Below the pieces are notes generated by a model, which made no database searches, was not told where the DNA came from, and was given only the letters and a program-made list of their open reading frames with translations. Below, in pieces: positions 11,335 through 44,101 of a DNA stretch of 46,776 nt; the first letter of the stretch is position 1, and every line of letters starts with the position of its first letter. The position numbers and the translations under genes were made by a program. Source of the DNA: a virus; the IMG/VR virus record IMGVR_UViG_3300036944_001100, positions 1-46,776 of that record. One strand, 5' to 3'.

Positions 11335-11350
11335 TTTTAACTCCTATGGA

Positions 11351-12415: not shown

Positions 12416-13008
12416 TATAGGATTCCTTCAAGTTTATGTTTCAACAACTCAGTAAAGAACTCAACACCTTCTTCAGGGCAGTTAGCAAACTCAGGATGGT
12501 ACTGAACACCGACAAACCCTTTCTTTAAGGCTACTACTCCTTCTGTTACACTGTCTCCTCCTGTGTAAACTTCTTCTGCATAGTGAGTCTCTTCAACAGG
12601 AACACTCTGATGATGAGTAGAATTAACAGATAGGTCTTCCCATCCAGGAATTTTCTTACCACCTCTGGTTAACATACGATGAATAGTCCCAGCATGGTTG
12701 TCGATATGCTGTATTAGAGTTCCTCCATTAGCTACATGAAGCAACTGTAAACCTCTGCAAATTCCTAGCATTGGAATCTGTTTTAGCTTAGAGGCAATTA
12801 CTGTACAAAAGTCTTGATAGTCATTATCTTGACTTGCAAAAGTACCTACTTTAGGTTGCTGGTTATAGAGGTAAGGAGTTACATCACTACCTCCACCAAA
12901 AACCATAAAATCAGGTATCTTACCATCAGCTGCTTCACTGTAGCCTAGTTTTTTAAGCAACTTAGAGATACTGTAATCTGAGCGGCTCATCATGAAGGTA
13001 TAAGTCAT
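12415..13008 (-). CDS. Class I glutamine amidotransferase (gamma-glutamyl hydrolase-like, C26)
   Basis: 197 residues. The class I triad is visible: nucleophile in 'MLGICRGLQLLHVANGG', and His-Glu in 'GVQYHPEFANCPEEG'. The N-terminal 'FGGGSDVTPYLY' and 'LIQHI' resemble PuuD-type gamma-glutamyl-GABA hydrolases, which split gamma-glutamyl amides. So it may either supply ammonia or cleave a gamma-glutamyl intermediate made by the neighbouring ligases. It overlaps the next gene by one base. Confidence 0.87.
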   Translation of the reverse strand: MTYTFMMSRSDYSISKLLKKLGYSEAADGKIPDFMVFGGGSDVTPYLYNQQPKVGTFASQDNDYQDFCTVIASKLKQIPMLGICRGLQLLHVANGGTLIQHIDNHAGTIHRMLTRGGKKIPGWEDLSVNSTHHQSVPVEETHYAEEVYTGGDSVTEGVVALKKGFVGVQYHPEFANCPEEGVEFFTELLKHKLEGIL

Positions 13009-13010
13009 TA

Positions 13011-16434: not shown

Positions 16435-17414
16435 TTAAAAATATCTCCTAGATCAAAACTTTTATTATTTTTAGCATATTCTACTGGACGTTTATGGAAG
16501 AAGTCAGTCATATTAGAACCAAGTGTTTCTTCTTCCATCCAAAGTGTTTGTTTTAACAATTCTTTTTCCTGTGCTGTTTCTTCTAATTTAGGAAAACCAA
16601 TTTGATCCATAGAATCGTTGATCCTACGTTTGATATAAGCCTTTAGTATGTCTTGTGATAAGTGTTTACTAGTATAACCTTGTAGAATCCAGTCAATAAC
16701 TTTTGATTCAGCTTCAAAGGCAGCTTGACATTCTTGTACAATTTTTTCTTTTAGTTCTTCGTCGAATAGGTCTGGATACTCTTCTTTCAACTTGTTAATA
16801 AGATAGATACCCACTTGAGCATGAAGCATCTCTTCATTGCGTGTGTATTGAATTTGTTGAGCTACATCTTTTAGAACATTATCAAAACGATTAAAGTGCA
16901 TCATTGTATAGAATTGACTAAACAGCGATACATTCTCAACAAACAAGGTAAACAAACAAATAGCATAAACATACTGTTTACGATCATCTTTGTACTTCTT
17001 TTCTAAATACTTTTGCAAGTACTTAACACGGTTAGCAACTACGTCTTTCTTTAAGTTCTCTTCAAAAGCACCTTCTAGCCCAAGAACGGTTAGCAGTTTC
17101 TCATAAGCAATATTATGAATAACTTCAGAATTAGCCATAACATAACCTAAGTCTTTGATAGAGGGGTGAGGTAGATGGTCACCTAACTTAGCCCAGAAGG
17201 TCTTTACAGCTACTTCAATTTGGCCAATAGCTGATAGCGTACGAACAACTACCTCTTTTTCTTGTTCTGTTAAAACTGTTTTAAATTGAGCATAATCGGA
17301 TTTAAATGAGAACTCATTACTAGTCCAAAAGCCAGCCCACATTGCATCAATAAATTGTTGTGTTTCAGGATAGTTATTAGGTTTCCTGCTGACCTGTGTT
17401 TCGAATAGTCCCAT
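16431..17414 (-). CDS. nrdB: Ribonucleotide reductase class I, small subunit
   Basis: 327 residues with the ferritin-like di-iron ligands: 'TLSAIGQIEVAVKTFW' (Glu), 'NSEVIHNIAYEKLL' (Glu, His and the probable radical Tyr) and 'YTRNEEMLHAQVGIYL' (Glu-Glu-x-x-His). It forms the tyrosyl radical used by NrdA. AAGAGG lies before the ATG, and a phage-type promoter is 33 bases upstream (17447-17467), making nrdB the first gene of that transcript. Confidence 0.95.
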   Translation of the reverse strand: MGLFETQVSRKPNNYPETQQFIDAMWAGFWTSNEFSFKSDYAQFKTVLTEQEKEVVVRTLSAIGQIEVAVKTFWAKLGDHLPHPSIKDLGYVMANSEVIHNIAYEKLLTVLGLEGAFEENLKKDVVANRVKYLQKYLEKKYKDDRKQYVYAICLFTLFVENVSLFSQFYTMMHFNRFDNVLKDVAQQIQYTRNEEMLHAQVGIYLINKLKEEYPDLFDEELKEKIVQECQAAFEAESKVIDWILQGYTSKHLSQDILKAYIKRRINDSMDQIGFPKLEETAQEKELLKQTLWMEEETLGSNMTDFFHKRPVEYAKNNKSFDLGDIFK

Positions 17415-17446
17415 AGTGCCCTCTTAGTTTCTTATTATTAGTTGTT

Positions 17447-17945: not shown

Positions 17946-18354
17946 AGCCTAGTCCTTTGTATAGCCTACTTAAGTCTGACATCTTACTTGTGTACATCAT
18001 TGAAATGTAGTCTGCTTTTGCTTCTGTTTTAGCCCAAGTCTCAAAGTTTTTTAGCATCTTAATACTACAAAGCCCTCTATGCTTTTCTTGAACATACCAG
18101 CCTAGCTCAGAGGCAATACGTTCGTCAAAGAATAAACCTTCTGTACATAGCCCTACAAACAGACCTACTACTTTTGTTTCTTCTTTAAGAACAGAAGTAT
18201 AGTAAGTCTTATCATAAATTAAAGAAGCTTCTAAAATAGCTCTCATCTTTTTTCGATTGAATTTATCAGAAACTCCATAGACTTTATTAAACTCTTCAGC
18301 TAAACTTACAGTTTCTTCGATGTCAAATACTTGTAATCGTTCTAGTTTAAGCAT
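17908..18354 (-). CDS. GNAT-family N-acetyltransferase
   Basis: 148 residues. The acetyl-CoA-binding region is 'ELGWYVQEKHRGLCSIKMLK', and the C-terminal half ends in 'YKGLGYEQAEYTYSKKL', the usual last strand of the fold. Similar small GNAT proteins are common in phages; their targets are unknown. It starts inside the primase-helicase stop region (8-base overlap). Confidence 0.8.
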   Translation of the reverse strand: MLKLERLQVFDIEETVSLAEEFNKVYGVSDKFNRKKMRAILEASLIYDKTYYTSVLKEETKVVGLFVGLCTEGLFFDERIASELGWYVQEKHRGLCSIKMLKNFETWAKTEAKADYISMMYTSKMSDLSRLYKGLGYEQAEYTYSKKL

Positions 18355-20065
18355 TAGGTTTTTCCTCTGTATGAATTATTTCAAACTCATCTTCATCTTT
18401 CTTTTCAACTTCTTCGAGACGACCTGTAGCTGAGTTAAATCTATACGCACCTGCAGGACCTGTATTGCCAGTTTTCCTATCTTTGAGTAAGTAGATTTGA
18501 CTACGATTACGAACCACTTCGTTTTCAGCCAATTTGTTTCTTGAAATTGCAATCGTTTGGAAAGAGATTTGCTTAAGCGATCCAGAGCCTTTAAGGTCGT
18601 CTTCGCTAATCGGAGCACCAGACTCAAATGAGTCTTCCCCCGACCTAACTTTTCTAAGATGTGATACAACTCCAATCCAGATGTTATGCCTTTTGACGAT
18701 TTTAAGTAAATCGGACATGAACCTGTCGATAGCTTGATTAACATTTCCATCCTCTGTATCTGAGACTGCGATTGTGATATGATCTAGATAGACATACTTA
18801 CAACCATTCAATGCCATGTACTCAATTTTATCTATAAGCCCGTTATCGGAAACAGAACCCTGGTGATCAAGAAGGATAACACGATTAGGCTGACCAACAG
18901 TAGCTTCCCAAGCTTTACGTTCTTCCTCTTCAGTTGTTTCTACTCCTGGCAAACCTAGTCGTTTGTTTAGATACAACCCCATAATACCACCAACAGTTTC
19001 GCCTACATCTTCTTCAAGGAAGATACAGCCGATTTTTTCTGTTGTTGTTTTAAGAAGATGAAAGATATCTTCTCGTAGCATTGTAGACTTACCAATAGAA
19101 GTACCTGCAGCAATCATAGTGATAGTGCTAAGAGCACGACCATGAGTTAACTCGTTTAATCGATTTAAGAAGGGTGGCCAAGGAACAAACTCTAAGTTTT
19201 TAAACTCATTATAACGTTCCCAAGTCTCTTCTCCTGGAAGGATACCAGAAGGACTATAAGCTTTAGCATCCCAAATGTAAGACCAAGCTTTTTTAGTTCC
19301 ATCTACTAGCCCATGATTTTTAAGAGTATCACAAGCATCTTTTTCATTTGATTTGACAATTTTTACTTTGTCAGCACCAAGTATCTTTGCAGCTTCTTTA
19401 GAAGCCTTTTGACCCTGCTCATCAGCATCAAACCAAATAACGATCTCTTCAAACTTACGGAGAGTATCTCGATTACTTAGCAAGTAAGTTAGCTGACTAA
19501 CACCACCCATAGAAACTACAGGATAGATAGCGTCATACTTCTGTAGAGAAGTTTGTGCTACTGCCATAGCATCTTCTTCACCTTCTGTAATAACGATACG
19601 CTTACCACCATTCATAAAGTGTTCGATACCAAAGAGATTTTTGACCTCTCCTATACAGTACTGATCAGACTTATCTTTAGGATTCTTAGTTTTATAGCCT
19701 GTTGTTACATTCCCTTCTAAATTTGCAATAGGAAAATAATAACGATCAATGTCCCCTGTCTCATTATAGCTTACTTTGACATTGAAGAATTCAGCTACTT
19801 TCTTAGTAATAAGACGATCGGAAATACCACGAGTAGGCAAAATAAGAATGTCGTCAAGATTAATCTCCTGCTTATAATGACTTCTACGGTAGCTATCTGT
19901 AACATAAGTTACTTCTGCTGTACCATGTTTTTTAGCATACTCTTTCTTGTAATCATAGGCAGCTTTACAAGAGAAACACTTTGCAGGACCTTCTTCATAA
20001 ATTTGAACAGCATCACTTGACTTACAACGTAAGCAAGGTTGATTACGTACTAAAATCTTTCCCAT
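18347..20065 (-). CDS. Bifunctional primase-helicase (T7 gp4-like)
   Basis: 572 residues. Order: N-terminal zinc ribbon ('PCLRCKSSD', 'AKCFSCKAAYD'); TOPRIM primase core ('IVITEGEEDAMAVAQ', 'IVIWFDADEQGQKASKEAA'); DnaB-type helicase with Walker A-like 'AAGTSIGKSTMLREDIF', Walker B 'CKYVYLDHITIAV' and a C-terminal acidic tail ('EKKDEDEFEIIHTEEKPNA'). It unwinds the fork and lays lagging-strand primers. Size and layout match T7 gp4. TAAGGAG precedes the ATG. Confidence 0.95.
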   Translation of the reverse strand: MGKILVRNQPCLRCKSSDAVQIYEEGPAKCFSCKAAYDYKKEYAKKHGTAEVTYVTDSYRRSHYKQEINLDDILILPTRGISDRLITKKVAEFFNVKVSYNETGDIDRYYFPIANLEGNVTTGYKTKNPKDKSDQYCIGEVKNLFGIEHFMNGGKRIVITEGEEDAMAVAQTSLQKYDAIYPVVSMGGVSQLTYLLSNRDTLRKFEEIVIWFDADEQGQKASKEAAKILGADKVKIVKSNEKDACDTLKNHGLVDGTKKAWSYIWDAKAYSPSGILPGEETWERYNEFKNLEFVPWPPFLNRLNELTHGRALSTITMIAAGTSIGKSTMLREDIFHLLKTTTEKIGCIFLEEDVGETVGGIMGLYLNKRLGLPGVETTEEEERKAWEATVGQPNRVILLDHQGSVSDNGLIDKIEYMALNGCKYVYLDHITIAVSDTEDGNVNQAIDRFMSDLLKIVKRHNIWIGVVSHLRKVRSGEDSFESGAPISEDDLKGSGSLKQISFQTIAISRNKLAENEVVRNRSQIYLLKDRKTGNTGPAGAYRFNSATGRLEEVEKKDEDEFEIIHTEEKPNA

Positions 20066-21042: not shown

Positions 21043-21526
21043 CTAACTCCTTATTAGAATTCATATAAAATTCTCCGTGCAGTTCTTTTGCTGCCTTGTC
21101 GTATGCTTGTGAAGCTTCTTTTGCAGTGTCAAAGTAACCAAGGTTTTTTGTTACCCCATTTAATGTAGTCTGAGCGTGATATTTTTGCTTATCTTGATGC
21201 CAAGAAACTCCTTTAATCTTTGTTTTACTATTTTGATTAACTCCTCGGTTTCTTAGATTCTCCTGCCTAGTAGCTAAGCGAAGATTTTCAATTCGATTGT
21301 CGTCTTTGATACCGTTAACATGATCAATTTCGTATCCTTCAAGAATAGGACCTACTAACATCGCATATACTATTCGGTGAACAAAGTATTTTTTACCTTT
21401 CAGTTCGACTTTACGATAGCCCTTATCATAAAAACCAGCTATAGATCCTATTTTTGCTCTTGGGCTATTACTCACCTTCCAGTACAGGTTACCGTCGTTG
21501 TAAGTGAAATAATCATTGAAATTCAT
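21035..21526 (-). CDS. HNH homing endonuclease with AP2 domain (copy 3)
   Basis: 163 residues from ATG 21526 (AAAGAGGAG upstream), 'MNFNDYFTYNDGNLYWK'. HNH core: 'YFVHRIVYAMLVG', 'YEIDHVNGIKDDNRIENLRL', 'RQENLRNRG'. AP2 domain: 'KIKGVSWHQDKQKYHAQT', 'KNLGYFDTAKEASQAYDKAA'. It is closer to copy 1 than to copy 2 by eye. The ATG overlaps the stop of the gene at 21523. Confidence 0.9.
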   Translation of the reverse strand: MNFNDYFTYNDGNLYWKVSNSPRAKIGSIAGFYDKGYRKVELKGKKYFVHRIVYAMLVGPILEGYEIDHVNGIKDDNRIENLRLATRQENLRNRGVNQNSKTKIKGVSWHQDKQKYHAQTTLNGVTKNLGYFDTAKEASQAYDKAAKELHGEFYMNSNKELVE

Positions 21527-21717
21527 AAAAACTCCTCTTTCAATTTGTCCCAATAATGCTTTTCAGCCTTTTCAAAGCTTGGGAAAGACTTTGAATAGTA
21601 CCAATTTCTCTGTTCCCAGAGTTCTACTTTATAGCTAACAGGTTTGTTTTCAGTTGCAGGTATACGGTGTACTGCTGCATAGCATCCGTTTTTGTCGTCA
21701 TACTCTAGCACGATCAT
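21523..21717 (-). CDS. Hypothetical small protein
   Basis: 64 residues, rich in aromatic and charged residues ('ELWEQRNWYYSKSFPSFEKA'), with no membrane segment. The start overlaps the end of the exonuclease gene by 20 bases. No function recognised. Confidence 0.65.
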   Translation of the reverse strand: MIVLEYDDKNGCYAAVHRIPATENKPVSYKVELWEQRNWYYSKSFPSFEKAEKHYWDKLKEEFL

Positions 21718-22429: not shown

Positions 22430-22823
22430 ACTCTTCCTCCACAACTTCTAAAGAGAAATCAATGTCAATATTGCTTTCTAGTTTTTCTAGTAAATTAGCA
22501 ATATTTGGAATAAAGTGAACACCCTTTACGAAGAAAGAAGGATCTTCTACAACTTTAAGATTACAGCTGTAAGTCATCACATCGTTGAGTACAACAAACT
22601 CTTGTAAAACTTGAGGTAAAGTATGAAGGTTATCTGCTAAGAAATCACAAAGTTCTTTGTATTTCTCTTCTGAGATAAAGTCTTCATTTCGTTCTAAGCA
22701 GTAATTAGCAAAGTGATAGAACAAAATAGCATGCTCTACACAACCTAAGGCTAGAGATTTATCTACTTCAATCTCATAGTCTTCTACAGTGAAGTACTCT
22801 GGATAGACTTCTTTACTTGACAT
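22413..22823 (-). CDS. Hypothetical acidic protein
   Basis: 136 residues from ATG 22823, which lies within the end of the preceding gene. Strongly acidic at the C-terminus ('SNIDIDFSLEVVEEEFDSVN') and helical. No motif recognised. It overlaps the exonuclease start by 17 bases and so is coupled to it. Confidence 0.65.
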   Translation of the reverse strand: MSSKEVYPEYFTVEDYEIEVDKSLALGCVEHAILFYHFANYCLERNEDFISEEKYKELCDFLADNLHTLPQVLQEFVVLNDVMTYSCNLKVVEDPSFFVKGVHFIPNIANLLEKLESNIDIDFSLEVVEEEFDSVN

Positions 22824-23164: not shown

Positions 23165-25039
23165 TTAATGAGTTTCATACCAGTTCTTACCGATAGAGGC
23201 AGAACCATCCATAATGTTAACACCAAAAGCTTTAGGAGCATCTCTAAAAGCCCTTAGCGCAATTTGTTTAGCTTCTTCTGCTTGATCTTCTCGAACAAGA
23301 AATTGACACTCATCATGATAAACAATAAGAGGTTGCCAATCAAAACCTTTTCGGTCTAGTTCTTCTTGTAGCTGATCAATAGCAGCAGAAACAGTGATCT
23401 TCTCAAAAGATTGTAGTAAGTAATTTAAAGCTAAACGTTTACCTTCCATGTAGATAGGTCGTCCGTCTAGTGCCATAATGTAACCCTTACCAGTCCTCTT
23501 TTCTGTTGCTTCAAACATTTTTTCTAAGCGAGAAACAGTTTCATTTAGCCCTGGAATCTTTCTTAGAAAAGCATCTTTGATTTCTACTCCTACTTCATTA
23601 TTTCGCCTTCCTGTTACGATAAGAGCTAGTTTGCCAGCACCACCAGCAAAGATAAGAGCATAGAAGAAAGCTTTAGCTCTCTTACGACCATCTGGTCCCA
23701 TTGGTCCAACAATAGATTCAAGAATCTTTCTGTTAAAGTCATGGATATCACCGGTACAGACAGCTGCAGTATACTCTTCGTTGTTTAGATAGTGAGCTAA
23801 GGCTCGGTTTTGGTTTCCTTTAGAATCAGCACCAACAATAACGTAGCCTTGTGGACTACTAAATAGACTACGAATTTCAGGACCAAAACTAGCATCAGCG
23901 CTAGGTATGTTAGCAATAACTGTATGACGACTTCTAGCAGTAGGGGTTCCAATAACGAAACAATCACCATGAATACGATTAGTTTCCTCATTTAGATTTT
24001 CTTCTAACCAAGTTTTAAGAATTGAATGCCTAGAACGAAGAGTATAGAACTGATTAATCATAGCACCAATTTCACCTAAAGGTTCTAAAGAAGCTTCAGT
24101 TAACTTTGGACTAGACTTTACAGGCGCTCCTCTTTCATTCTTGACATAATTCCACTCATCAGGCTCCCAACCAAGGCTATACAATAGATCTTTGACAGAT
24201 TCCATAGAACCAATATCAGGTTGAACAAGTTCTACTCTACAGTAGTCACCCCAAATAGGTCGATCATCTTCTAAACCTCTAGCTGGATTTATCTCAAACC
24301 AACCAGCAGTTCTAACTGCATAGTGGCCTGTTTTAATCCAAGCTGGAGACTTATATTCAGGATCCCTGTCTACTTGTGCTAACTTCATCTTTAACTGAGG
24401 ATTAATAGTATCCTCAATTTTCTTCATTTCTTCTTCTAGTTGTAACTTAACTTGTAAACCTTTTATTTTGTCAAAAGGCCAACCATGAAGAATAGAACGA
24501 CCTACGAAACGAGAGATACCGTGTTCAGCTTTAATACCGAGTTTAAGTGACTCTTTGTTCTTTCTTTCGTTCAATTCCTTTACAAGATAGTTGTAAACTT
24601 TAACATTTAACTTAACATCAACTACGCATCGATTACGCATCTCCGGACTATATTGTGACCAATCTTCATGTTCAACCTTTGGATAATCAAAGAATTCACC
24701 CCACTTAGCTAGACTATGCCCAAATCCAAAACGTTTATAGTTTTGAACCTGGGACATGATCATTGTGTCTACTAGTTTGTGGTGTTCTTTTGGCTTCCAA
24801 CCTAACAACTTTTCTAATACTAGGAGATCATACATCATAATATTATGACCTGATAGCAATCTACAAGAATCTAGAAAAGCTGGTAATTCTGAAAGAGGTT
24901 TATCAGTTGCTTCATAATCTGAGAAAACAACTTGTTCTCCCGTCACCAAGTCTTCTGCTACAAATAGCCAAATTGTAGTTGCCTCTTTTAAAAGACCGTT
25001 GGTCTCGAGGTCAAATACAACTTGTTTACTTGGCAACAT
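23165..25039 (-). CDS. DNA polymerase, family A, with 3'-5' exonuclease
   Basis: 624 residues, slightly shorter than T7 gp5. Exonuclease: 'VVFDLETNGLL' (ExoI) and the later 'NRCVVDVKLNVKVYNYL' (ExoIII-like, YxxxD). Polymerase motif A: 'VIVGADSKGNQNRALAHYL'; motif B: 'RKRAKAFFYALIFAGG'; motif C: 'IVYHDECQFLV'. By eye alignment to T7 gp5, the sugar-gate Glu of DASGLELR is Gln and the second motif B Tyr is Phe. Catalytic Asp residues in motifs A and C are kept. Replicates the phage genome. Confidence 0.95.
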   Translation of the reverse strand: MLPSKQVVFDLETNGLLKEATTIWLFVAEDLVTGEQVVFSDYEATDKPLSELPAFLDSCRLLSGHNIMMYDLLVLEKLLGWKPKEHHKLVDTMIMSQVQNYKRFGFGHSLAKWGEFFDYPKVEHEDWSQYSPEMRNRCVVDVKLNVKVYNYLVKELNERKNKESLKLGIKAEHGISRFVGRSILHGWPFDKIKGLQVKLQLEEEMKKIEDTINPQLKMKLAQVDRDPEYKSPAWIKTGHYAVRTAGWFEINPARGLEDDRPIWGDYCRVELVQPDIGSMESVKDLLYSLGWEPDEWNYVKNERGAPVKSSPKLTEASLEPLGEIGAMINQFYTLRSRHSILKTWLEENLNEETNRIHGDCFVIGTPTARSRHTVIANIPSADASFGPEIRSLFSSPQGYVIVGADSKGNQNRALAHYLNNEEYTAAVCTGDIHDFNRKILESIVGPMGPDGRKRAKAFFYALIFAGGAGKLALIVTGRRNNEVGVEIKDAFLRKIPGLNETVSRLEKMFEATEKRTGKGYIMALDGRPIYMEGKRLALNYLLQSFEKITVSAAIDQLQEELDRKGFDWQPLIVYHDECQFLVREDQAEEAKQIALRAFRDAPKAFGVNIMDGSASIGKNWYETH

Positions 25040-26621: not shown

Positions 26622-27032
26622 TTACCTATAGTAAGCTAGAGTTGCTTGAAGTGCGTCTTCAAGTGTATGATGAACTTCTGTAGCGAAGACATCAATAAAA
26701 GGATGTTGAAATCCTTCTTCAAGAACTACTACAATCGTTTTGCTATGACTCTGTGCGATAATTAGCTCACAGATAGTACCCCAAGCTTTTCCTTGACCTC
26801 GATCCTTAAGGTTCATAAGTACAACATTAGACTCTTGAATATCATTCATATCCATACGAACGATTTTCTTAGCTAAGTTAATAGAGTAGGGTTGATCGTG
26901 AAACTTTTTACGTCGTGTAGGATCTAGAGTGTTAATACCTCTATACTTAAGAAACGCAGTGGCAGTCGTCCGCCACTTTGTTGCTTCTTCTAGACTTACA
27001 CCTTCAATAGGCCCAGCCAGATAAACAGTCAT
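26622..27032 (-). CDS. Nucleoside 2-deoxyribosyltransferase-like protein
   Basis: 136 residues. 'MTVYLAGPIEG' at the N-terminus, 'IVRMDMNDIQESNVVLMNL' and 'GTICELIIAQ' (probable catalytic Glu) match the Rossmann-like deoxyribosyltransferase fold. Such enzymes move deoxyribose between bases or hydrolyse nucleoside monophosphates. A role in nucleotide salvage fits the neighbours. AAGAGG precedes the start. Confidence 0.8.
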   Translation of the reverse strand: MTVYLAGPIEGVSLEEATKWRTTATAFLKYRGINTLDPTRRKKFHDQPYSINLAKKIVRMDMNDIQESNVVLMNLKDRGQGKAWGTICELIIAQSHSKTIVVVLEEGFQHPFIDVFATEVHHTLEDALQATLAYYR

Positions 27033-27602: not shown

Positions 27603-27623
27603 TCTGCTTTATAGCTAAGAGGT
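27603..27623 (-). promoter_or_regulatory. Phage RNA polymerase promoter, upstream of ssDNA-binding gene
   Basis: Minus strand ACCTCTTAGCTATAAAGCAG, identical over 20 bases to the copy at 17447. It starts at the last base of the RNA polymerase stop codon (TGA CCTCTT), so the polymerase gene ends exactly where the next promoter begins. Confidence 0.78.
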
Positions 27624-29803
27624 CAACAGAAACAGAAGTCCGATTCTAGAACTTTCTTGATATCTAGTTTACCTCGTTTAGGCATCATCTCAACACAATT
27701 CAACTGTGTCAAAATATGTTTTAGAGGATCTTGTTGATACAATTCAACAAACTTCTCTCGTACTAGAGTAAATAGTTGGCTCATGTTACCAGCTGTAGTG
27801 CCCCAGGAATCATGAATAGCTGCTACTTCAAAGTCTGCAGCATGCACTACCATAGACATATGGACAGCATCTAGGCTATGAACAATATTTGGAGAAGCAC
27901 CTAGTTTTTGAGAGTCTTTATCTAAACTTGCATCTTCCCAATTCTCAACTACAACATGGAAACGAGTGTCCCCATATGATAACCAAGTACGGTTACTGGT
28001 TGGCTTACGATAGTTTTGAACAACAGGGAAGTTAGTCACAGGTGACTTCCAAGCCATGTACTCATGCTTCTCATTGTAAATCTCAGCTACTTGCTCGAAT
28101 AACTTCAACAGTCCACCTGGACCCTTTAAGTCTTCATAACAAGCAGCATGCAACTCACGACCTAGCATTGAAGCCCAAAGCTTTTCTTGTTGACCTAAGT
28201 AAGGAGTTAGAGTACGAGTATCGTCCCATACTTGTTGACCCATACCATAAGGAACAGCTCCATAGGCAGAAGTCATTACTGGACGCTTACAGATTTTTCT
28301 ACGAATTTTGAGGTCTTTAATACGATTCCAATAGACGGGGTATAAAGCTTCTCGTAGTTTACGATTATTGTTTCTCCAGGTTTGTACTGCAGTGTAGGCC
28401 AAGGCTTTTCGTTCCGAACCTGCTGGTGCATCATCATATTCCTTTTGAAGGCGTTCTGCTTCTTCTAGCACATAGTCTAGTTGTCCATAAATAGCACTAG
28501 GTATACGCATTTCTAAAGCTTCTAATCGAGTCCAAGCTTTTTCTGCTACTAAGGCATAGAGATCTCCTGGTATTTCGCTAGGTACTAAGTTAACATAAGG
28601 GGCTAGCTCCTCGTCCTTAGACATAGCAGTTAAGTGTTGTGAGCCATTATTTGACCCATCGATAAACAAAGGTAGATGAGATACAAAGGACTCTTGAGAG
28701 TTACCAGAATCACACCAACTTTGTAGTAGTTTCAACTCCATACAGAAGGCTAAGAAACTAAAGGGTTTATCTGCTTTCATCCAAGCAGTATTCTCTGTTG
28801 GATTTTCAGCGTACTCTAAAAATAGTGCATAGTTCTGTAAACAAAATTCAGCACGATCGTCTAGAGAACACTTATCATTACCCCAAGTATTAGAGCCATG
28901 AACTAACAGCCAATAGAAACCTTCTTCGCCGATAGGAGTTCCTTGAGCGAATAGCAATAAGCTTTTAGCGTTATCACTACTTTGCTCATGAAGGAAAGCA
29001 GTATTTGGATAAAGTCTTCCACGAAAGTCTGTGTTATACAAGTGATAGAACACTTTATCAATATTCTTTTTAGCTAGTCTCTGAATAGAAGACAATTCAA
29101 TATAGAGACTTTCTTTCTTTTCGAAGTCCTTCTCTTGTTTATATTTAAGAGGATTGCCTTCTTCTTCTGCTTCCATGTAGTATTCTATAACATCTAGCAG
29201 AGGTTTGTTGATAATCCAAGGAGTAGCACTTAGTTTATTTAGAACATCAAAGATCATCTGATGCTCTTCTTTGTTTATCTTACTAGTAATTTCAGGACTA
29301 GACTTCTTAATAATAGAGTAGCCTAGAGGATGCATTGCTGCTGTCCAAGGTTCTGGTTTAACATTCATAGGAAACAGATCAATATCATCTTCTACGTTTA
29401 GCTCATCCCATAGATCAAACAACATTTTCTTGTTTTTTACTTCTACAGTATAAGTTAAGTATTTTGATCGTTTACCTTTTTTGTCTGTTTTTACTAGTTT
29501 GTAGTTTAGTAAACCTACTTCAAAGAAAGATACTAGAACAAAGAAACCAACATGACAAGCCCCAGTGCTATTCCTAGCTAATCGAAGCTTTTGTCGTACT
29601 CGACGACCTAGCGTAACAGCTAAGTCTACTAGTGTTGCTTTTCGTTCTACTCCTTTGATAATATGGCCGAAAGAAAACAGAATAATCTTTTTACCCTCTT
29701 CTTCTTTTAAAAAGTGAGTATATTGATTTCTGTCAGCTCTAAGTGTGGACTTACGAAAATTGAAATCGTCAATAAGTGATTTTAAAATAGAGTTGTCTGA
29801 CAA
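27623..29803 (-). CDS. T7-type single-subunit RNA polymerase
   Basis: 726 residues against 883 for T7; the shortfall is mostly in the N-terminal domain. Motif A 'LFIDGSNNGSQHLTAMSKDE', motif B 'CKRPVMTSAYGAVPYGM' and motif C 'AIHDSWGT' hold the two catalytic Asp residues and the Lys/Tyr of the O helix. The C-terminus 'VLESDFCFC' parallels the T7 'ESDFAFA' foot. It should read the ACCTCTTARCTATAAAG promoters. A copy of that promoter is directly upstream, implying positive feedback. No host-type promoter is visible nearby. Confidence 0.96.
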   Translation of the reverse strand: MSDNSILKSLIDDFNFRKSTLRADRNQYTHFLKEEEGKKIILFSFGHIIKGVERKATLVDLAVTLGRRVRQKLRLARNSTGACHVGFFVLVSFFEVGLLNYKLVKTDKKGKRSKYLTYTVEVKNKKMLFDLWDELNVEDDIDLFPMNVKPEPWTAAMHPLGYSIIKKSSPEITSKINKEEHQMIFDVLNKLSATPWIINKPLLDVIEYYMEAEEEGNPLKYKQEKDFEKKESLYIELSSIQRLAKKNIDKVFYHLYNTDFRGRLYPNTAFLHEQSSDNAKSLLLFAQGTPIGEEGFYWLLVHGSNTWGNDKCSLDDRAEFCLQNYALFLEYAENPTENTAWMKADKPFSFLAFCMELKLLQSWCDSGNSQESFVSHLPLFIDGSNNGSQHLTAMSKDEELAPYVNLVPSEIPGDLYALVAEKAWTRLEALEMRIPSAIYGQLDYVLEEAERLQKEYDDAPAGSERKALAYTAVQTWRNNNRKLREALYPVYWNRIKDLKIRRKICKRPVMTSAYGAVPYGMGQQVWDDTRTLTPYLGQQEKLWASMLGRELHAACYEDLKGPGGLLKLFEQVAEIYNEKHEYMAWKSPVTNFPVVQNYRKPTSNRTWLSYGDTRFHVVVENWEDASLDKDSQKLGASPNIVHSLDAVHMSMVVHAADFEVAAIHDSWGTTAGNMSQLFTLVREKFVELYQQDPLKHILTQLNCVEMMPKRGKLDIKKVLESDFCFC

Positions 29804-36692: not shown

Positions 36693-36712
36693 TTAAGACT
36701 CCTTTGTTGTTA

Positions 36713-36804
36713 TGGTAGAAGTGCCGAGTTTCGATCTCGGTCCAGAACAGTCATCTACTGCTAAAGGGTTTATAAGGCCCTCTTGTGTCCCAACACCCAC
36801 TTCC
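36713..36804 (-). tRNA. Atypical tRNA-like gene, long variable arm, anticodon position UAU
   Basis: The acceptor stem (GGAAGTG / CACTTCT) has a G-U first pair, and A73 and CCA are encoded. The T stem CCGAG / CTCGG is perfect. A long variable arm contains CAGT-AGATG-ACTG, so it is class II (Leu/Ser-like; A73 favours Leu). Oddities: very short D loop; anticodon arm is either a 9-base loop or has a C-A mismatch at 31-39, with UAU in the anticodon place; the T loop begins with A instead of T. It may be degenerate, or a special decoder. Placed 5 bases from tRNA-Arg. Confidence 0.6.
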
Positions 36805-36809
36805 ATACT

Positions 36810-36886
<77 letters not shown>

Positions 36887-36896
36887 TAGGAGTTTT

Positions 36897-36924
36897 AGAA
36901 GGCCAGTTGTTATACCAGCCTTCT
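36897..36924 (-). ncRNA. 5'-terminal stem-loop of the tRNA transcript
   Basis: Minus strand AGAAGGC / GCCTTCT, a 7-pair perfect stem with a 14-base loop. It begins about five bases after the predicted start site of the promoter at 36922-36942 and ends about 10 bases before tRNA-Arg. It could protect the 5' end or aid tRNA processing. Confidence 0.5.
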
Positions 36925-37961: not shown

Positions 37962-38144
37962 CTAAGGAACAACTAACTCCGAAACAAAGTCTAGATGATT
38001 TTCAGTCATCTCGGCTAAGTCTTCATCTGTTACTTCGTTCCAATTTAGTTTATCAGTAGAACGTTGTAGCGTGTCATGTACACGATAGTACCACGTTGTT
38101 CCCTTATAGTCTATATAGACTTGAACTGTGCAGTCAATACACAT
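37962..38144 (-). CDS. Hypothetical small protein
   Basis: 60 residues: 'VQVYIDYKGTTWYYRVHDTL' with an acidic C-terminal half. The start shares a base with the dCMP deaminase stop. No motif recognised. Confidence 0.6.
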   Translation of the reverse strand: MCIDCTVQVYIDYKGTTWYYRVHDTLQRSTDKLNWNEVTDEDLAEMTENHLDFVSELVVP

Positions 38145-38581
38145 CAGTTTATCCTTGGTAGATAGTAAATAGAAACATTAGCTTCATTTAGCATAGTTTT
38201 GGATTCTAGAAAATTTGAATACCAAGAACTTTCTTTTTCGATTGGTGGAGTTATAATCGCAGAGATTCCTTTCTGGATTATCAATCCTGAACATTTGCAA
38301 CAACAAAAAGTGGTACAATAAAGTATGTATCCTTCCATTGAGTCATCCTTGCAGTTAATAATAGCATTAGTTTCTGCATGAATAACTAGTTGATTTTTTA
38401 AATCATTGTTATTCCATCGTTCAGGCGTATCAGCTACTCCTCTTGGAAAACCATTGTAACCAATAGAAGCGACTGTATTGTCAGGTCGAGCAATGACACA
38501 ACCTACTTGTCTATTAGGATCTTTAGACCAAGAGGCTACTAGTTTTGCCATACTGAAAAAGCGATCAGGCCAAGTAGTCAT
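38144..38581 (-). CDS. dCMP deaminase
   Basis: 145 residues. The zinc site is 'VIHAETNAI' (HAE) and 'CTTFCCCKCSGLIIQ' (CxxC). 'WSKDPNRQVGCVIARPDN' and 'SIGYNGFPRGVADTPERW' are characteristic of dCMP/deoxycytidylate deaminases, the NGFP segment being the family mark. It makes dUMP for dTTP supply; no thymidylate synthase is seen in this window. Usual PCxxC is here FCCCKC. Confidence 0.92.
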   Translation of the reverse strand: MTTWPDRFFSMAKLVASWSKDPNRQVGCVIARPDNTVASIGYNGFPRGVADTPERWNNNDLKNQLVIHAETNAIINCKDDSMEGYILYCTTFCCCKCSGLIIQKGISAIITPPIEKESSWYSNFLESKTMLNEANVSIYYLPRIN

Positions 38582-40055: not shown

Positions 40056-40348
40056 TTCCAAACCCTCGCTTCTACGTTGTAACCTTCAAACCGATGTACA
40101 AGTACCACTTCATAGCCTTGTAGTTGGGCTGCATGTTTTCGAAGATGACGTCTGAAAGCCTTGTAGCTTCGACAGTGACAACAAGTAGAAGAACCCTCAG
40201 GGAAAGGGCCTTCTGTCTTCCACTGTCTAGTTTTGTGGCACCACCACAAAGTGTCATACTCTGCGTTTCCAAAGGTTGTTATCCAAAGGAAACGACTAGA
40301 AAGAATACGTTTACGTAGACCAGCTTCAAAGGTTGTTATTGTTTTCAT
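40052..40348 (-). CDS. Hypothetical protein with CxxC
   Basis: 98 residues. 'GSSTCCHCRSYKAFRRHLRK' has a Cys/His cluster that may bind zinc. 'YDTLWWCHKTRQWKTEGPFP' is distinctive. It starts in the preceding stop (ATGA). No function recognised. Confidence 0.62.
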   Translation of the reverse strand: MKTITTFEAGLRKRILSSRFLWITTFGNAEYDTLWWCHKTRQWKTEGPFPEGSSTCCHCRSYKAFRRHLRKHAAQLQGYEVVLVHRFEGYNVEARVWK

Positions 40349-40512
40349 TCTAGTGATTCCATGAGATTACTGTCTGACCAAGCCTCTTCATAAGCTTGAT
40401 CGGCTAGCGCTTCCCAACGACCATAGACTTGTGGGTTAAAAGCTGTTGCAATAACACCAACAAGTATAAGATAAGTCAAGAGAGAGTTAATAAGTTTCAT
40501 AGCATTTAACAT
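40345..40512 (-). CDS. Small membrane protein
   Basis: 55 residues from ATG 40512 with AGAGGTG upstream. One membrane segment 'LINSLLTYLILVGVIATAF' and an acidic tail ('YEEAWSDSNLMESLE'). The Shine-Dalgarno is read from the opposite strand of the first bases of the rightward promoter at 40520. Confidence 0.6.
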   Translation of the reverse strand: MLNAMKLINSLLTYLILVGVIATAFNPQVYGRWEALADQAYEEAWSDSNLMESLE

Positions 40513-40519
40513 AGTTTTC

Positions 40520-40539
40520 ACCTCTTAGCGATAAAGAAG
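40520..40539 (+). promoter_or_regulatory. Solitary rightward phage promoter
   Basis: Plus strand ACCTCTTAGCGATAAAGAAG, one base from the consensus in the TATA region (CGATA for CTATA). It lies opposite to all genes for several kilobases and therefore does not serve a coding operon. Confidence 0.68.
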
Positions 40540-40553
40540 AATGAGAGTTCTTT

Positions 40554-40583
40554 GGGGGTTGTCAGTAGGTTCAGTTAGAAGAT
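40554..40583 (+). repeat. G-rich direct repeat, copy A
   Basis: GGGGGTTGTCAGTAGG followed by TTCAGTTAGAAGAT. It matches copy B (40612-40639) over its whole length apart from two single-base C insertions. Copy spacing is 58 bases. Confidence 0.8.
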
Positions 40584-40611
40584 TTCTAGCTATATTTCTC
40601 TTTAGGGGGAG

Positions 40612-40639
40612 GGGGGTTGTAGTAGGTTAGTTAGAAGAT
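40612..40639 (+). repeat. G-rich direct repeat, copy B
   Basis: GGGGGTTGTAGTAGG followed by TTAGTTAGAAGAT. It is preceded by GGGGGAG, so the whole G-tract is G5-A-G6 (40605-40616). Copies A and B together bring three G-runs of five or more, enough for a quadruplex in RNA or RNA-DNA form. Confidence 0.8.
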
Positions 40640-40658
40640 AAAGATTATTATTCTTCTT

Positions 40659-40889
40659 TTATTTAAAAGGAGTATCTTCTTTAGCACAAGGTATCCATAC
40701 ACGTTTATGTAAACCAACTAAGTTTTCTCTGTTACTATAACGATAATGCTTTTTAGTATTAACAGCAACAATTGTCATTAAACCTTCTTTGTTAACTGCA
40801 AAACGATTATCAGCACGATAGTAACCTTCAGCTGTATGAAAGTTATCATTTGCTACTTCTAGTTTCTGTACATCTGCTACTTTAGTCAT
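40659..40889 (-). CDS. Hypothetical protein
   Basis: 76 residues from ATG 40889 (AAAGGA upstream, inside the preceding gene's end). 'ANDNFHTAEGYYRADNRFAV' and 'YSNRENLVGLHKRVWIPCA' suggest a small beta-rich protein. No motif recognised. Confidence 0.6.
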   Translation of the reverse strand: MTKVADVQKLEVANDNFHTAEGYYRADNRFAVNKEGLMTIVAVNTKKHYRYSNRENLVGLHKRVWIPCAKEDTPFK

Positions 40890-41256
40890 TCCATCCATCC
40901 TTTGTTGTGTAAGACACTTTACGAATTCCAAACGCTTCTATGGCTCGTTGACAACCTGTACAAGGACAACTAGCAGCCAACGACCCATCTTTTAACACTC
41001 TTGCCACGTAGAGCTCACAGTCACTCAGTACTGCTGCTCCGTGTCTATGTATAACCTTTACTATGCAGTCTAACTCTGCATGCAACCAAACTGCTTCAGG
41101 GTGCTTACAGAAACGACCAGCTAGAGGGTGAGTCTTTTCTTTGTTGACTCCTGTAGCTAACACACGGCCTTTATAGACTAGAGCAGCTGCATGCTTTGCT
41201 CTGAACACTGGTTGGCTTGCAAACGCTAACCTCAGGACTCTTTCTTTTGGTTCCAC
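40882..41256 (-). CDS. Deaminase-like zinc protein
   Basis: 124 residues from a GTG start; a downstream start cannot be excluded. 'WLHAELDCIVKVI' (HAE) and 'ASCPCTGCQRAIEAFGI' (PCxxC) form a complete cytidine/deoxycytidylate deaminase zinc site. 'HAAALVYKGRVLATGVNK' is the first strand pair. It is a second deaminase-fold protein beside the dCMP deaminase at 38144 and more divergent; its substrate could be a free nucleoside or nucleotide or something else. Confidence 0.78.
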   Translation of the reverse strand: MEPKERVLRLAFASQPVFRAKHAAALVYKGRVLATGVNKEKTHPLAGRFCKHPEAVWLHAELDCIVKVIHRHGAAVLSDCELYVARVLKDGSLAASCPCTGCQRAIEAFGIRKVSYTTKDGWND

Positions 41257-41540
41257 GATCGGCCTAACTCGAAAATTTCTTTGAAGTCTTCTTTACTAGG
41301 ACGGAACATTCTAGTACCTATTTTTTTGTAAGCCTCTTCCCAAGGCTCTTGCTTATTATAAACAGTATACTCAATATGACCATTAGGAGTGTAAACTTTA
41401 TGTTTACCAGTAAGTCTATCTACTCTAAGAACACCAAGGTTAGGATGTTCTACAATGACCTTACCTGACTCCCAGTAACTATCACTAATGTAGTAGACTT
41501 CTTTGTTATTTAAATATACAGGCTTTGACCAGTCAATCAT
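41232..41540 (-). CDS. Hypothetical protein
   Basis: 102 residues. The first part is beta-rich ('YYISDSYWESGKVIVEHPNL'), the second helical and basic. It overlaps both neighbours (4 and 25 bases). No motif recognised. Confidence 0.62.
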   Translation of the reverse strand: MIDWSKPVYLNNKEVYYISDSYWESGKVIVEHPNLGVLRVDRLTGKHKVYTPNGHIEYTVYNKQEPWEEAYKKIGTRMFRPSKEDFKEIFELGRSWNQKKES

Positions 41541-41758
41541 ACTACATACATTCCTTCAGGTAGCCCTAAGGCGGTTAACAGTTCTTTAAACTGATTGTTT
41601 GTAAACTCGACTACTTCATAGCGATCGAGGTCCTCATTCCATTGACGCACAAAGACTCCTTCGCTGTCTAGTAGTACTTCAACATCTTCTAGTTGACCAC
41701 TCTGATCTAGAAGAGTTACTACTGTTTCTCGAAACTGATGCTCTACTGTAAAACTCAA
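41537..41758 (-). CDS. Hypothetical acidic protein
   Basis: 73 residues from TTG 41758, chosen because it overlaps the preceding stop as TTGA, the same coupling used by neighbours; the longer frame from 41818 runs inside the upstream gene. Acidic ('GQLEDVEVLLDSEGVFV', 'WNEDLDRYEVVEF'). Function unknown. Confidence 0.55.
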   Translation of the reverse strand: MSFTVEHQFRETVVTLLDQSGQLEDVEVLLDSEGVFVRQWNEDLDRYEVVEFTNNQFKELLTALGLPEGMYVV

Positions 41759-41892
41759 CGAGTCACCGCTTGATACCAGTACAGCCCTTCTTTGTAAGTT
41801 GATCCTACTAGGCTCCAACCTAGAAGAATCATACGCTGACAGTCTTTTAACAGAGTAGCTTGTGACGCTGCTCTTAACATTGTTTGTGTCAT
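41755..41892 (-). CDS. Small hypothetical protein
   Basis: 45 residues, 'MTQTMLRAASQATLLKDCQR' followed by a Trp/Tyr-rich stretch ending in 'GLYWYQAVTR'. TGGAGTC is 5 bases before the ATG. Small proteins of this 'L..GW.....gglyW' type are seen in other phages, function unknown. Confidence 0.6.
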   Translation of the reverse strand: MTQTMLRAASQATLLKDCQRMILLGWSLVGSTYKEGLYWYQAVTR

Positions 41893-41922
41893 GTCGACTC
41901 CAGTTTGAAAAAAAAAAATGTA

Positions 41923-41943
41923 ACTAAACCCCAAAGGATTTAG
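41923..41943 (-). terminator. Leftward terminator with U11 tract
   Basis: On the minus strand CTAAATCC-TTTG-GGGTTTAG folds as an 8-pair stem with one U-G wobble, which on the other strand would be a C-A mismatch. The run T11 follows after TTACA. The stop codon of the micro-ORF at 41940 is inside the stem. Confidence 0.7.
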
Positions 41944-42041
41944 AAAAGAGCTTTATGTAAGAAGAAAAAAGCTCGAATTGTTAGACGAAATAGGAAGTAG
42001 ATACCACAAATAAATATTAGTGTATATGCATCTGTAAACAT
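41940..42041 (-). CDS. 33-residue transmembrane micro-protein between two terminators
   Basis: 'MFTDAYTLIFICGIYFLF' plus 'RLTIRAFFFLHKALF': one hydrophobic helix and a basic aromatic tail. AAAGGT is 7 bases upstream. It is flanked by terminators at 42067-42096 and 41923-41943. Whether it is translated is not certain. Confidence 0.5.
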   Translation of the reverse strand: MFTDAYTLIFICGIYFLFRLTIRAFFFLHKALF

Positions 42042-42066
42042 TAATTTTACCTTTCGAAAAAAAAAA

Positions 42067-42096
42067 AATAGCACAACCTGTTAGGGTCATGCTATT
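42067..42096 (-). terminator. Leftward terminator with U12 tract
   Basis: Minus strand AATAGCA / TGCTATT outer stem plus an inner ACC/GGT-type stem, then T12. It separates the first ten or so leftward early genes from those downstream. Confidence 0.85.
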
Positions 42097-42102
42097 TCTT
42101 TG

Positions 42103-42276
42103 TTAAACACCAAGTTTTACACGGTCTTCAGTTCCCTGAAGAGTAGACTCAACCAGCCTACCATAGGCCAATCGTTGTTCTTTGGTCATAAGCTCAAGTA
42201 ACTTCTGAGTTGGTCGTAACCAAGTCTGGTTAACTTGAACTTCAGCATGACCATCTTTATTAGTACGATAGTTCAT
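42103..42276 (-). CDS. Hypothetical small protein
   Basis: 57 residues ('MNYRTNKDGHAEVQVNQTWL', 'KEQRLAYGRLVESTLQGTED'). Its ATG overlaps the preceding stop (TAATG). The stop is 6 bases before the terminator at 42067-42096. No motif recognised. Confidence 0.62.
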   Translation of the reverse strand: MNYRTNKDGHAEVQVNQTWLRPTQKLLELMTKEQRLAYGRLVESTLQGTEDRVKLGV

Positions 42277-42455
42277 TACAAGAACTCCTTCCAGTTCATA
42301 GTTACAGTTAACTCAGTTGAAACATAGAAGATCCAATCAGGTTGATCAGAAACCTTATGATCTTTCACTACCATCTTCACTTCGGCTTCAGACTCAACAA
42401 TTTGAGATCTGTAGTTGTGATTACTAGTAGCGTCCCAGACAAGTATGTAGAACAT
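42276..42455 (-). CDS. Hypothetical small protein
   Basis: 59 residues from ATG 42455 (GGAGGCTGAA upstream). Alternating beta pattern: 'MFYILVWDATSNHNYRS', 'EVKMVVKDHKV', 'PDWIFYVSTELTVTMNW'. Function unknown. Confidence 0.62.
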   Translation of the reverse strand: MFYILVWDATSNHNYRSQIVESEAEVKMVVKDHKVSDQPDWIFYVSTELTVTMNWKEFL

Positions 42456-42456
42456 T

Positions 42457-42549
42457 TCAGCCTCCAAAGCCATAAGCTACCCAACCAAGTACAAACGGTA
42501 CTGCAAACACCAACACAGCTCCGATGATATCTTCTAGATGTTCTTTCAT
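42457..42549 (-). CDS. 30-residue transmembrane micro-protein
   Basis: 'MKEHLEDIIGAVLVFAVPFV' then 'LGWVAYGFGG'. A single membrane helix with a GG end. GGAG precedes the ATG within the repeated CAACAATGGAG leader. Confidence 0.55.
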   Translation of the reverse strand: MKEHLEDIIGAVLVFAVPFVLGWVAYGFGG

Positions 42550-42614
42550 TTTCAACTCCATTGTTGAGGTTTTGTTTGCGATGCAGTTTAAAGACTTGCA
42601 TCAGGTCTTAGGCT

Positions 42615-42881
42615 TTATTGACCTTGACGCATGTAGTAATCGCCAAGATCTTTGTAGGCATTGCTAAGATTCTCCAAAGCTCTACCATAAGCTTCTTCAA
42701 ACTCATAGTCTTCAGGTGCAGTATGTAGAGTTCCCACTACATTCTTCAACCCTTCTTTTGCAATGTCTACTTTAGTCTGAGCATGATCTACACACTCCTT
42801 CAACCAAAACCTTTCATACATATCGCAAGCTTTTTCAAGCTCTTGATTTCTACGAAAGAACTTAAGTAGCTTAGTCAACAT
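42615..42881 (-). CDS. Hypothetical helical protein
   Basis: 88 residues from ATG 42881, after the CAACAATGGAG leader; the ATG in the leader itself (at 42893) is less likely. Helical, charged ('MLTKLLKFFRRNQELEKACD', 'AYKDLGDYYMRQGQ'). No motif recognised. Confidence 0.62.
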   Translation of the reverse strand: MLTKLLKFFRRNQELEKACDMYERFWLKECVDHAQTKVDIAKEGLKNVVGTLHTAPEDYEFEEAYGRALENLSNAYKDLGDYYMRQGQ

Positions 42882-42931
42882 TTTCGGCTCCATTGTTGGG
42901 AATTTACTAACGTCAGTTATGAGCAGTTTAT

Positions 42932-42947
42932 ACACCTACTCAGGTGT
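42932..42947. repeat. Perfect inverted repeat in gene gap
   Basis: ACACCT-ACTC-AGGTGT, 6-pair stem and 4-base loop. There is no U-run on either side, so it is not a standard terminator. It may be an RNA processing or operator site. Confidence 0.5.
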
Positions 42948-42952
42948 TAGCA

Positions 42953-43147
42953 CTACCAGGAGGGATCTTTAAGATCCTCCCAGTCCGTAGTGGCAATTGA
43001 AGTTTTCACTTCAACCTTACCACGGCAGAAACTGCAAATCCTTGCGGATTTAACAGTCTTGTCAAACACCAAGTAATCCTTGGTATCGACCTGAACACGA
43101 TTCTTACAGATATAGCATCTGCAAGACACGCGGTAGTAAACTCCCAT
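42953..43147 (-). CDS. Small zinc-ribbon protein
   Basis: 64 residues from ATG 43147 (GGAGGTTACC upstream). 'RVSCRCYICKNRVQVDTKDY' and 'ARICSFCRGKVEV' give two CxxC pairs 25-30 residues apart, a typical zinc ribbon. Likely an early host-takeover or nucleic acid-binding protein; no exact family recognised. Confidence 0.68.
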   Translation of the reverse strand: MGVYYRVSCRCYICKNRVQVDTKDYLVFDKTVKSARICSFCRGKVEVKTSIATTDWEDLKDPSW

Positions 43148-43174
43148 GGTAACCTCCATTGTTGGGAATTGAAC

Positions 43175-43297
43175 CTATGTAAGCACAGCTGAAACTGCTG
43201 TCATGTTTTTAGCTAGAAGATAGACTCCGTAAACAACCAAGGCTGTGTAAACAGAATGAATCAACAGTTCTTTTGCAGCTTCGATAAGTAGCTTCAT
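43175..43297 (-). CDS. 40-residue membrane protein
   Basis: 'MKLLIEAAKELLIHSVYTAL' then 'VVYGVYLLAKNMTAVSAVLT'. It has an amphipathic N-terminal helix and one membrane helix. It follows the CAACAATGGAG leader. Confidence 0.55.
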   Translation of the reverse strand: MKLLIEAAKELLIHSVYTALVVYGVYLLAKNMTAVSAVLT

Positions 43298-43331
43298 TTC
43301 TGACTCCATTGTTGAAAGATGATAGTCTGTC

Positions 43332-43559
43332 TTACGCCGTTTCCCTCACTTTTTTACCAGTGAAACGACCTTCTTCTAGCAACTGCAAAAGAATTTCGAA
43401 AGCATCTTCCGACTTTGCATAGAAGCACTCAGCCCAAGTATAACCAGGTTTTAACTTCCGGTCACACACGTATTGTCCGAAACGTAGTCGACGAAGGTCT
43501 AAGTCTTTAGACCAAGTTGACCATAGTTCACGCAATTCGTTTAGTGTCAACTCCATCAT
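43332..43559 (-). CDS. Hypothetical protein
   Basis: 75 residues, helical ('LNELRELWSTWSKDLDLRRL'). ATG overlaps the preceding stop (ATGA), GAGGG upstream. No motif recognised. Confidence 0.62.
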   Translation of the reverse strand: MMELTLNELRELWSTWSKDLDLRRLRFGQYVCDRKLKPGYTWAECFYAKSEDAFEILLQLLEEGRFTGKKVRETA

Positions 43560-43753
43560 GCTACCCTCGTTACCTTTATCTGGTTATCGATTGTAGTGCT
43601 TTTAAACTTACGTTTAAACATCTTGGAGTAGTAATCCATCCGAGAGCTAAAGGTTTTCTTATCCGCGTTTGTTGGACATTTTACAAACGCACTCTCTCCT
43701 ACCTTCAATTCAATGAAGAAGTCATTCCACTTACCATGATAACCACTGCTCAT
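43556..43753 (-). CDS. Hypothetical protein, DNA-binding-like basic tail
   Basis: 65 residues. 'GKWNDFFIELKVGESAFVKC' and 'MDYYSKMFKRKFKSTTIDNQ' plus 'IKVTRVA' match a pattern in small phage proteins where a short basic helix precedes 'i.v.R'. This could be a small DNA-contacting protein. AAGGAG upstream. Confidence 0.62.
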   Translation of the reverse strand: MSSGYHGKWNDFFIELKVGESAFVKCPTNADKKTFSSRMDYYSKMFKRKFKSTTIDNQIKVTRVA

Positions 43754-43799
43754 TTGACGCTCCTTGTTGTCGGGTTAAGTAGTTAGATGCATGCTTAGC

Positions 43800-44030
43800 T
43801 TAGAACGCCAAAACTAGACTGTAAACTAAGGCACCTGCAAAAGGTGTTTTAGTATCAGAGTACTTTAGCAACGCTTTAGTTACTGCAGCTTCTTTCGAGT
43901 CAGCATCTACTCGAAGAGTTTTACTGTAACCACTTTCTCCATCTTCAGAAACAAAATGAAGATCAACAATGTACTGCAAAGCAGAAACACCATCTTTGAT
44001 TTCCACAGTCTCATGCTTCGTAGTCTTCAT
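43800..44030 (-). CDS. Hypothetical early protein
   Basis: 76 residues, first leftward gene after the host-type -10 box at 44059. 'ALQYIVDLHFVSEDGESGYS' and 'VDADSKEAAVTKALLKYSDT' suggest a small alpha/beta fold. AAGGAG upstream. Function unknown. Confidence 0.65.
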   Translation of the reverse strand: MKTTKHETVEIKDGVSALQYIVDLHFVSEDGESGYSKTLRVDADSKEAAVTKALLKYSDTKTPFAGALVYSLVLAF

Positions 44031-44058
44031 CGTGACACTCCTTGTCTTTGATTATCTC

Positions 44059-44064
44059 ATTATA
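44059..44064 (-). promoter_or_regulatory. Probable host sigma-70 -10 box for leftward early genes
   Basis: Minus strand TATAAT, perfect -10 hexamer, about 30 bases before the ATG at 44030. No good -35 is found at 16-18 bases (the region is A-rich), so it may need an activator or be UP-element-driven. It lies in the only large divergent gap between leftward early genes and the PhoH/portal block. Confidence 0.5.
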
Positions 44065-44101
44065 GATACACACTTTTCCTCACTTTTTTTAAGGATTTTT
44101 T

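Follow-up and report, generated by a model that had tools for sequence, protein, structure and literature searches.

What is served by a phage promoter that reads away from every gene around it? The question is posed by position 40520 of the window, by which we mean the whole 46,776-base stretch of viral DNA analysed here, and the initial annotation answered it by proposing an RNA-primed replication origin. The record is part of a larger phage genome: the portal gene ends at its right edge, at the left edge the gene for a tail-type protein runs off the sequence, and the same genome plan is found in viral contigs of up to 73.8 kb. Its nearest named phages, DSS3_VP1 and DSS3_PM1 (Naomviridae, Noahvirus), share with it a T7-like RNA polymerase (44% identity), a portal (42%) and a related promoter core, CGTTAAAGA; no nucleotide matches to the window were found among named phages. 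Alongside ribonucleotide reductase, terminase, PhoH and portal, the window does encode the T7-like polymerase and replisome on which the origin proposal leaned:

18347 to 20065, minus strand: T7-like primase-helicase (phrog_239, E=1e-139), whose N-terminus on inspection has zinc-finger-like CxxC motifs
23165 to 25039, minus strand: T7-like (family A) DNA polymerase (phrog_17, E=2e-95)
27623 to 29803, minus strand: T7-like single-subunit RNA polymerase (phrog_414, E=3e-133)

Other parts of the gene content deserve mention in their own right. Genes for an amidoligase, a COOH-NH2 ligase, a RimK-like S6 glutaminyl transferase and two glutamine amidotransferases cluster at 7472-14012 (minus strand), an uncommon gene set for a phage; the block also aligns in contigs G001, G002 and G010, and it perhaps represents a peptide- or DNA-modifying pathway. 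A nucleoside deoxyribosyltransferase-like gene and two dCMP-deaminase-like genes occupy 26622-27032, 38144-38581 and 40882-41256 (minus strand), and since the relative DSS3_VP1 has been studied for uracil-containing DNA (PMC12697855), base substitution is possible in the window phage as well. The tail-type protein (1689 residues) carries long internal duplications (1664-3683) that are 61-83% identical and offset by about 1.4 kb.

With a promoter matrix derived from the motif that recurs in the window, ACCTCTTAGCTATAAAGNAGAA, seven strong copies scoring 28-38 bits are identified, the top score in 20 shuffled sequences being 22 bits:

17446, 21622, 27602, 29824 and 36921, minus strand: leftward promoter copies
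32088 and 40520, plus strand: rightward promoter copies

Those at 17446, 27602, 29824 and 32088 each stand shortly upstream of a gene on the same strand, that at 36921 feeds a tRNA, and that at 21622 falls within a reading frame (21523-21717). Only the copy at 40520-40541 (ACCTCTTAGCGATAAAGAAGAA, 34 bits) faces away from every neighbouring gene, the next gene on the plus strand being PhoH at 44102; about 3.5 kb thus passes without a plus-strand gene, and the original description of a rightward promoter with no rightward gene behind it was correct. In sequenced bacterial genomes the promoter motif has two matches only, both taken as chance because the hosts are unrelated, and from which no phage host is therefore proposed. 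As a separate observation, the leftward copy at 36921 directly feeds tRNA-Arg(TCT) (36810-36886), beyond which about 110 nt of gene-free DNA (36700-36810, minus strand) ranks among the window's best conserved gaps (94% identical in G001, 89% in G007); an Rfam search found the tRNA alone, and the gap is possibly an unknown structured RNA.

Transcription from 40520 would begin near 40534 and proceed into a gene-free gap of 137 nt (40522-40658), flanked by leftward reading frames at 40345-40521 and 40659-40931. The relevant features are as follows:

40534 to 40558, plus strand: first transcribed bases, with a possible 5' hairpin (arms AAAGAA and TTCTTT around gaatgagag) and then GGGGG; identical in the window and seven related contigs
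40554 to 40583, plus strand: first copy of a G-headed repeat, GGGGGTTGTCAGTAGGTTCAGTTAGAAGAT, with GGGGG at 40554 and containing TTGTC, a T7-primase-type site
40605 to 40616, plus strand: CSB II-like double G-tract GGGGGAGGGGGG, carried by the non-template strand and heading the second repeat copy
40612 to 40639, plus strand: second copy of the G-headed repeat, GGGGGTTGTAGTAGGTTAGTTAGAAGAT
40617 to 40676, plus strand: AT-rich stretch (77% AT) that begins behind the G-tract and overlaps a leftward gene at its 3' end

Both repeat copies terminate in ...AGTTAGAAGA(T), which places the two G-rich repeats reported earlier correctly to within a few bases. The G-tract that had been noticed at the second copy is the sole G5-N(1-2)-G5 of the contig on either strand, as well as its top G4Hunter site, and 3 Mb of Markov sequence contained none. 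It lies 71 nt from the putative start at 40534, in agreement with the spacing of about 70-80 bases given at first, and the chance of a random site falling within 100 nt 3' of a same-strand promoter is 0.9% in the window and 0.6% in the distant contig L115 (see below). The AT-rich tract is likewise real, but only moderate, since the 60 nt past the G-tract are 77% AT against a mean of 62.5% and 1.7% of all 60-nt segments are equally AT-rich.

Exact and gapped pattern scans recovered relatives on seven contigs, which together with the window form three lineages: the window and G008; G001, G002 and G006; and G004, G005 and G007. The promoter, the transcript start, both repeats and the double G-tract are kept in all three, and the gap aligns at 80-91% between them though the flanking genes largely differ. 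The promoter is invariant but for one position, the first 25 transcribed nucleotides, including the possible hairpin and GGGGG, are invariant throughout, and so is the repeat end AGTTAGAAGA in both copies. The double tract reads G5AG6 in two lineages and G5TAG5 in one, with start-to-tract distances of 71, 95 and 82 nt, and the DNA behind it in G001 is 67% AT (top 20% of segments). The initial annotation had asked for a search of related genomes for the promoter together with G5AG6 and had counted absence of the tract from close relatives against an origin; the double tract proved to be present in each of the three lineages, and the pairing recurs farther afield, in a case that looks still more like an RNA-primed origin.

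This distant counterpart is L115 (G012), whose portal is just 43% identical to that of the window. Its longest gene-free gap holds two identical tandem promoters, TTACACCTGTCGACGTTAAAGAAGAG, 125 nt apart, with GGGGGAGGGGGG (G5AG6) 41 nt past the start of the second; 180 nt of gene-free DNA at 87% AT (top 0.02% of that contig's segments) follow, and then comes the first late gene. When the gaps of 2.9 million viral contigs were scanned for the promoter core with a G-tract, only the window group, L115 and chance or coding matches emerged; those in L144-L149 and L151-L164 were rejected as coding or unrelated, the upstream promoter half being missing. G009 (portal 62%) has a double G-tract between two tandem promoters, but on the opposite strand; in DSS3_VP1, DSS3_PM1 and the G026 group, long gene-free gaps carry tandem promoters with no non-template double tract. 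Tandem promoters in a gene-free gap thus look common in this phage group; by sequence, the CSB II-like tract is a trait of only part of it, most of the distant relatives, including DSS3_VP1 and DSS3_PM1, having no double G-tract. The double G-tracts of the G026 group were set aside, as they belong to a terminator hairpin, a tRNA and short inverted repeats and do not represent the window element. Like the window group, DSS3_VP1 has phage promoters in a gene-free gap, there in tandem and in its longest gap (2143-2534); unlike in the window, the genes of DSS3_VP1 and DSS3_PM1 all run in one direction and their promoters are without a non-template double G-tract.

Two further kinds of site were seen in these relatives. 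In L132 (G026; 4050-4970, contig 24050-24970) and L051 (DSS3_VP1; 2143-2534), two or three tandem promoters stand behind a terminator-like hairpin, and these long gaps may be regarded as candidate origins themselves. In L040 (G002; 2640-2730, contig 22640-22730) and L045 (G009; 16449-16540), a GC-rich hairpin with a T-run lies directly behind two rightward promoters, a passage from promoter to terminator-like element that is found just upstream of capsid genes.

How is the conserved element of the window to be read? The invariance of the first 25 transcribed nucleotides, and their complementarity to the leftward transcript in the stretch that separates two early genes, would suit a small non-coding or antisense RNA, or else a leader peptide (MRVLWG...), made from 40534 and regulating the early leftward mRNA. 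We consider this very improbable. Rfam 15 covariance models gave zero matches at the element, its plus-strand transcript folds no better than shuffles (z -0.49; the minus strand, at z -1.8, is not convincing either), and no terminator-like site was found directly downstream. The peptide itself, from a 29-codon rightward frame beginning at 40542, was rejected because the frame is not conserved among relatives, its length being 29, 16 or 8 codons depending on the lineage.

A second possibility is that the repeats act at the level of DNA as binding sites for a phage protein (an initiator, repressor, packaging or partition factor), the promoter being merely adjacent to them or regulated thereby. 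The two copies are indeed more alike within one genome (27 of 29 positions in G000, 27 of 31 in G001) than between the G000 and G001 lineages (24-27 of 30-32), and both copies of a genome share lineage-specific changes (AGTAGG versus CATMAGTGG), which would fit one binding partner or gene conversion. Also in favour of this reading, the place of packaging cannot be read from where the contigs end; the terminal overlaps of 123-127 nt in G022, VP1 and PM1 resemble k-mer overlaps left by assembly, and terminal repeats were rejected as a packaging marker. However, the repeats are missing from L115, which retains the promoter and the G-tract, and since every element-bearing contig continues through the element, nothing points to a genome end at this site. 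We hold DNA-level binding to be an improbable account of the element.

More weight has to be given to what lies downstream:

44041 to 44089, minus strand: conserved gap between divergent genes, whose leftward TATAAT box is probably an early promoter for the host RNA polymerase; no rightward phage promoter
44102 to 46772, plus strand: rightward late block (PhoH-like, small ORF, portal), the first rightward genes downstream of the element

Because no other phage promoter lies between the element and these same-orientation genes, the intervening 3.5 kb being occupied by antisense genes, the 40520 copy may be there to transcribe the late genes, and the G-tract may attenuate that transcription. Taken by itself, this would make 40520 a late promoter for the PhoH-portal block, furnished with a regulated leader and devoid of any replication role; its RNA would run antisense over the early genes at 40659-44030, perhaps silencing them, and the hairpin, G-tracts and repeats would constitute a 5' leader or attenuator setting the amount of transcription that passes. 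Such an exclusively transcriptional role, the main rival to an origin, is possible, if somewhat doubtful. It is consistent with the finding of no phage promoter ahead of PhoH-portal other than 40520, and of the next rightward one only about 20 kb farther on, before the capsid genes in G002, with the tandem phage promoters directly ahead of late genes in G009, L115 and DSS3_VP1, and with the hairpins that often occur immediately behind phage promoters in this group. Yet a late promoter has no need to sit 3.5 kb inside the opposite early cluster in all three lineages, the PhoH-portal block may have host-type promoters, and a plain leader needs neither the double G-tract nor the 180 nt of very AT-rich DNA seen in L115.

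The element could fill both the late-promoter and the origin role, as happens at the mitochondrial light-strand promoter (LSP), and we tentatively prefer to see in it a replication origin primed by transcription and working also as a late promoter, read-through feeding the late genes. The phage RNA polymerase would start near 40534, and once the G-tract is reached, the nascent transcript would form an RNA-DNA hybrid with the displaced G-rich strand (an R-loop, possibly a hybrid quadruplex), such that a fraction of transcripts would pause or end at about 85-150 nt. This primer RNA could then be extended rightward by the phage DNA polymerase together with the primase-helicase, the displaced plus strand would present a T7-primase-type site after the first G-tract from which the primase could start the opposite fork, and polymerases that read through would run antisense across the early genes into the PhoH-portal late genes. 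Origin function is a plausible candidate role in that all three T7-like enzymes, RNA polymerase, DNA polymerase and primase-helicase, are encoded and a phage-polymerase promoter reads into gene-free DNA; in T7, DNA polymerase and helicase can displace a stalled RNA polymerase and prime from its transcript (PMC5997990). The T7 primase site is (G/T)2GTC (PMC12839067), and a site of this form follows the first G-tract in all three lineages despite changed letters (TTGTC, GTGTC and GGGTC). It would suit priming on the displaced strand, but it is suggestive only, since G/T-rich DNA raises its chance occurrence and the window phage primase's own site is not established. Against an origin, late transcription would by itself account for the promoter, and the GC-skew check proposed at the outset yielded no origin signal, strand skew being confounded by gene direction; on passing the element, leftward genes change their third-position GC skew in two genomes, contrary to the expected direction, and hardly at all in two others. 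The lack of a double tract in most of the distant relatives, its opposite strand in G009, RNA folding no better than in shuffles, the weak effect of tracts this short on human mitochondrial RNA polymerase (POLRMT) and the distance to the first T-rich stretch (both below) also tell against this role. To our knowledge no earlier candidate origin is known for this phage group, in which the element would be the first.

The primary origin of T7 consists of the promoters phi1.1A and phi1.1B followed by an AT-rich region. The AT-rich cluster spans 3761-3821, about 61 bp (PMC12839067). In common with this origin, the window group has a phage-polymerase promoter reading into DNA that is AT-rich to a varying degree, and the T7-like RNA polymerase, DNA polymerase and primase-helicase; L115 additionally has the two tandem promoters, and its arrangement resembles a T7 primary origin plus a CSB II-like block. 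The window group, a candidate origin only, differs in its single promoter, its moderate AT-richness, and its extra G-tract and repeats. T7 also carries phage promoters with no adjacent gene, phiOR and phiOL, at its genome ends; the 40520 promoter is like them in having no adjacent gene and unlike them in that no genome end is seen.

In mitochondria, LSP and the G-rich CSB II are about 100 nt apart, and POLRMT can be halted at this block by a mechanism proposed to involve an RNA-DNA quadruplex (PMC11346463). The phage element shares with LSP-CSB II a promoter for a single-subunit T7-like polymerase and, within about 100 nt of it, an interrupted G-tract on the non-template strand: a GnAGn+1 tract stands 41-95 nt downstream (about 100 in human), its adenine one place ahead of the middle as in most human CSB II variants. 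To this extent the CSB II-like designation was justified; it does not extend to the G count or the T-run. The phage tract has 10-11 G, compared with the usual 12-15 in vertebrate CSB II, and with 8-11 guanines in total human POLRMT shows almost no termination above background (PMC5027508); the human stop length of at least 12 G is thus not reached, although a third G5 run lies upstream and this threshold does not derive from the phage enzyme. The strongest POLRMT stops also rely on a T-run about 20 nt downstream, and termination by T7 RNA polymerase likewise rises with longer G-tracts (PMC5027508). No strong T-run follows right after the phage tract, the first T-rich stretch being about 40 nt downstream, and no TEFM-like factor was identified. 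Since two functional features of the class, the G count and the T-run, were tested on the sequence and not found, we do not assign the element to the CSB II class; it is, judged from its letters, a variant of a polymerase-primed origin or promoter module.

A mitochondria-style switch proper in a lytic phage, in which an RNA-DNA G-quadruplex at the CSB II-like tract would make primers and read-through would express the late genes, is in our estimation unlikely. If it existed, one G-tract would set the balance between replication and late transcription, in an independent phage counterpart of LSP-CSB II, of which the open-access literature yielded no example, and it would offer a simple, manipulable system where a short G-tract governs whether the polymerase makes a primer or a transcript. 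In mitochondria, the RNA polymerase, Twinkle and DNA polymerase gamma are similar to T7-type phage enzymes, and the likeness between the phage and mitochondrial arrangements is one of convergence, not of descent.
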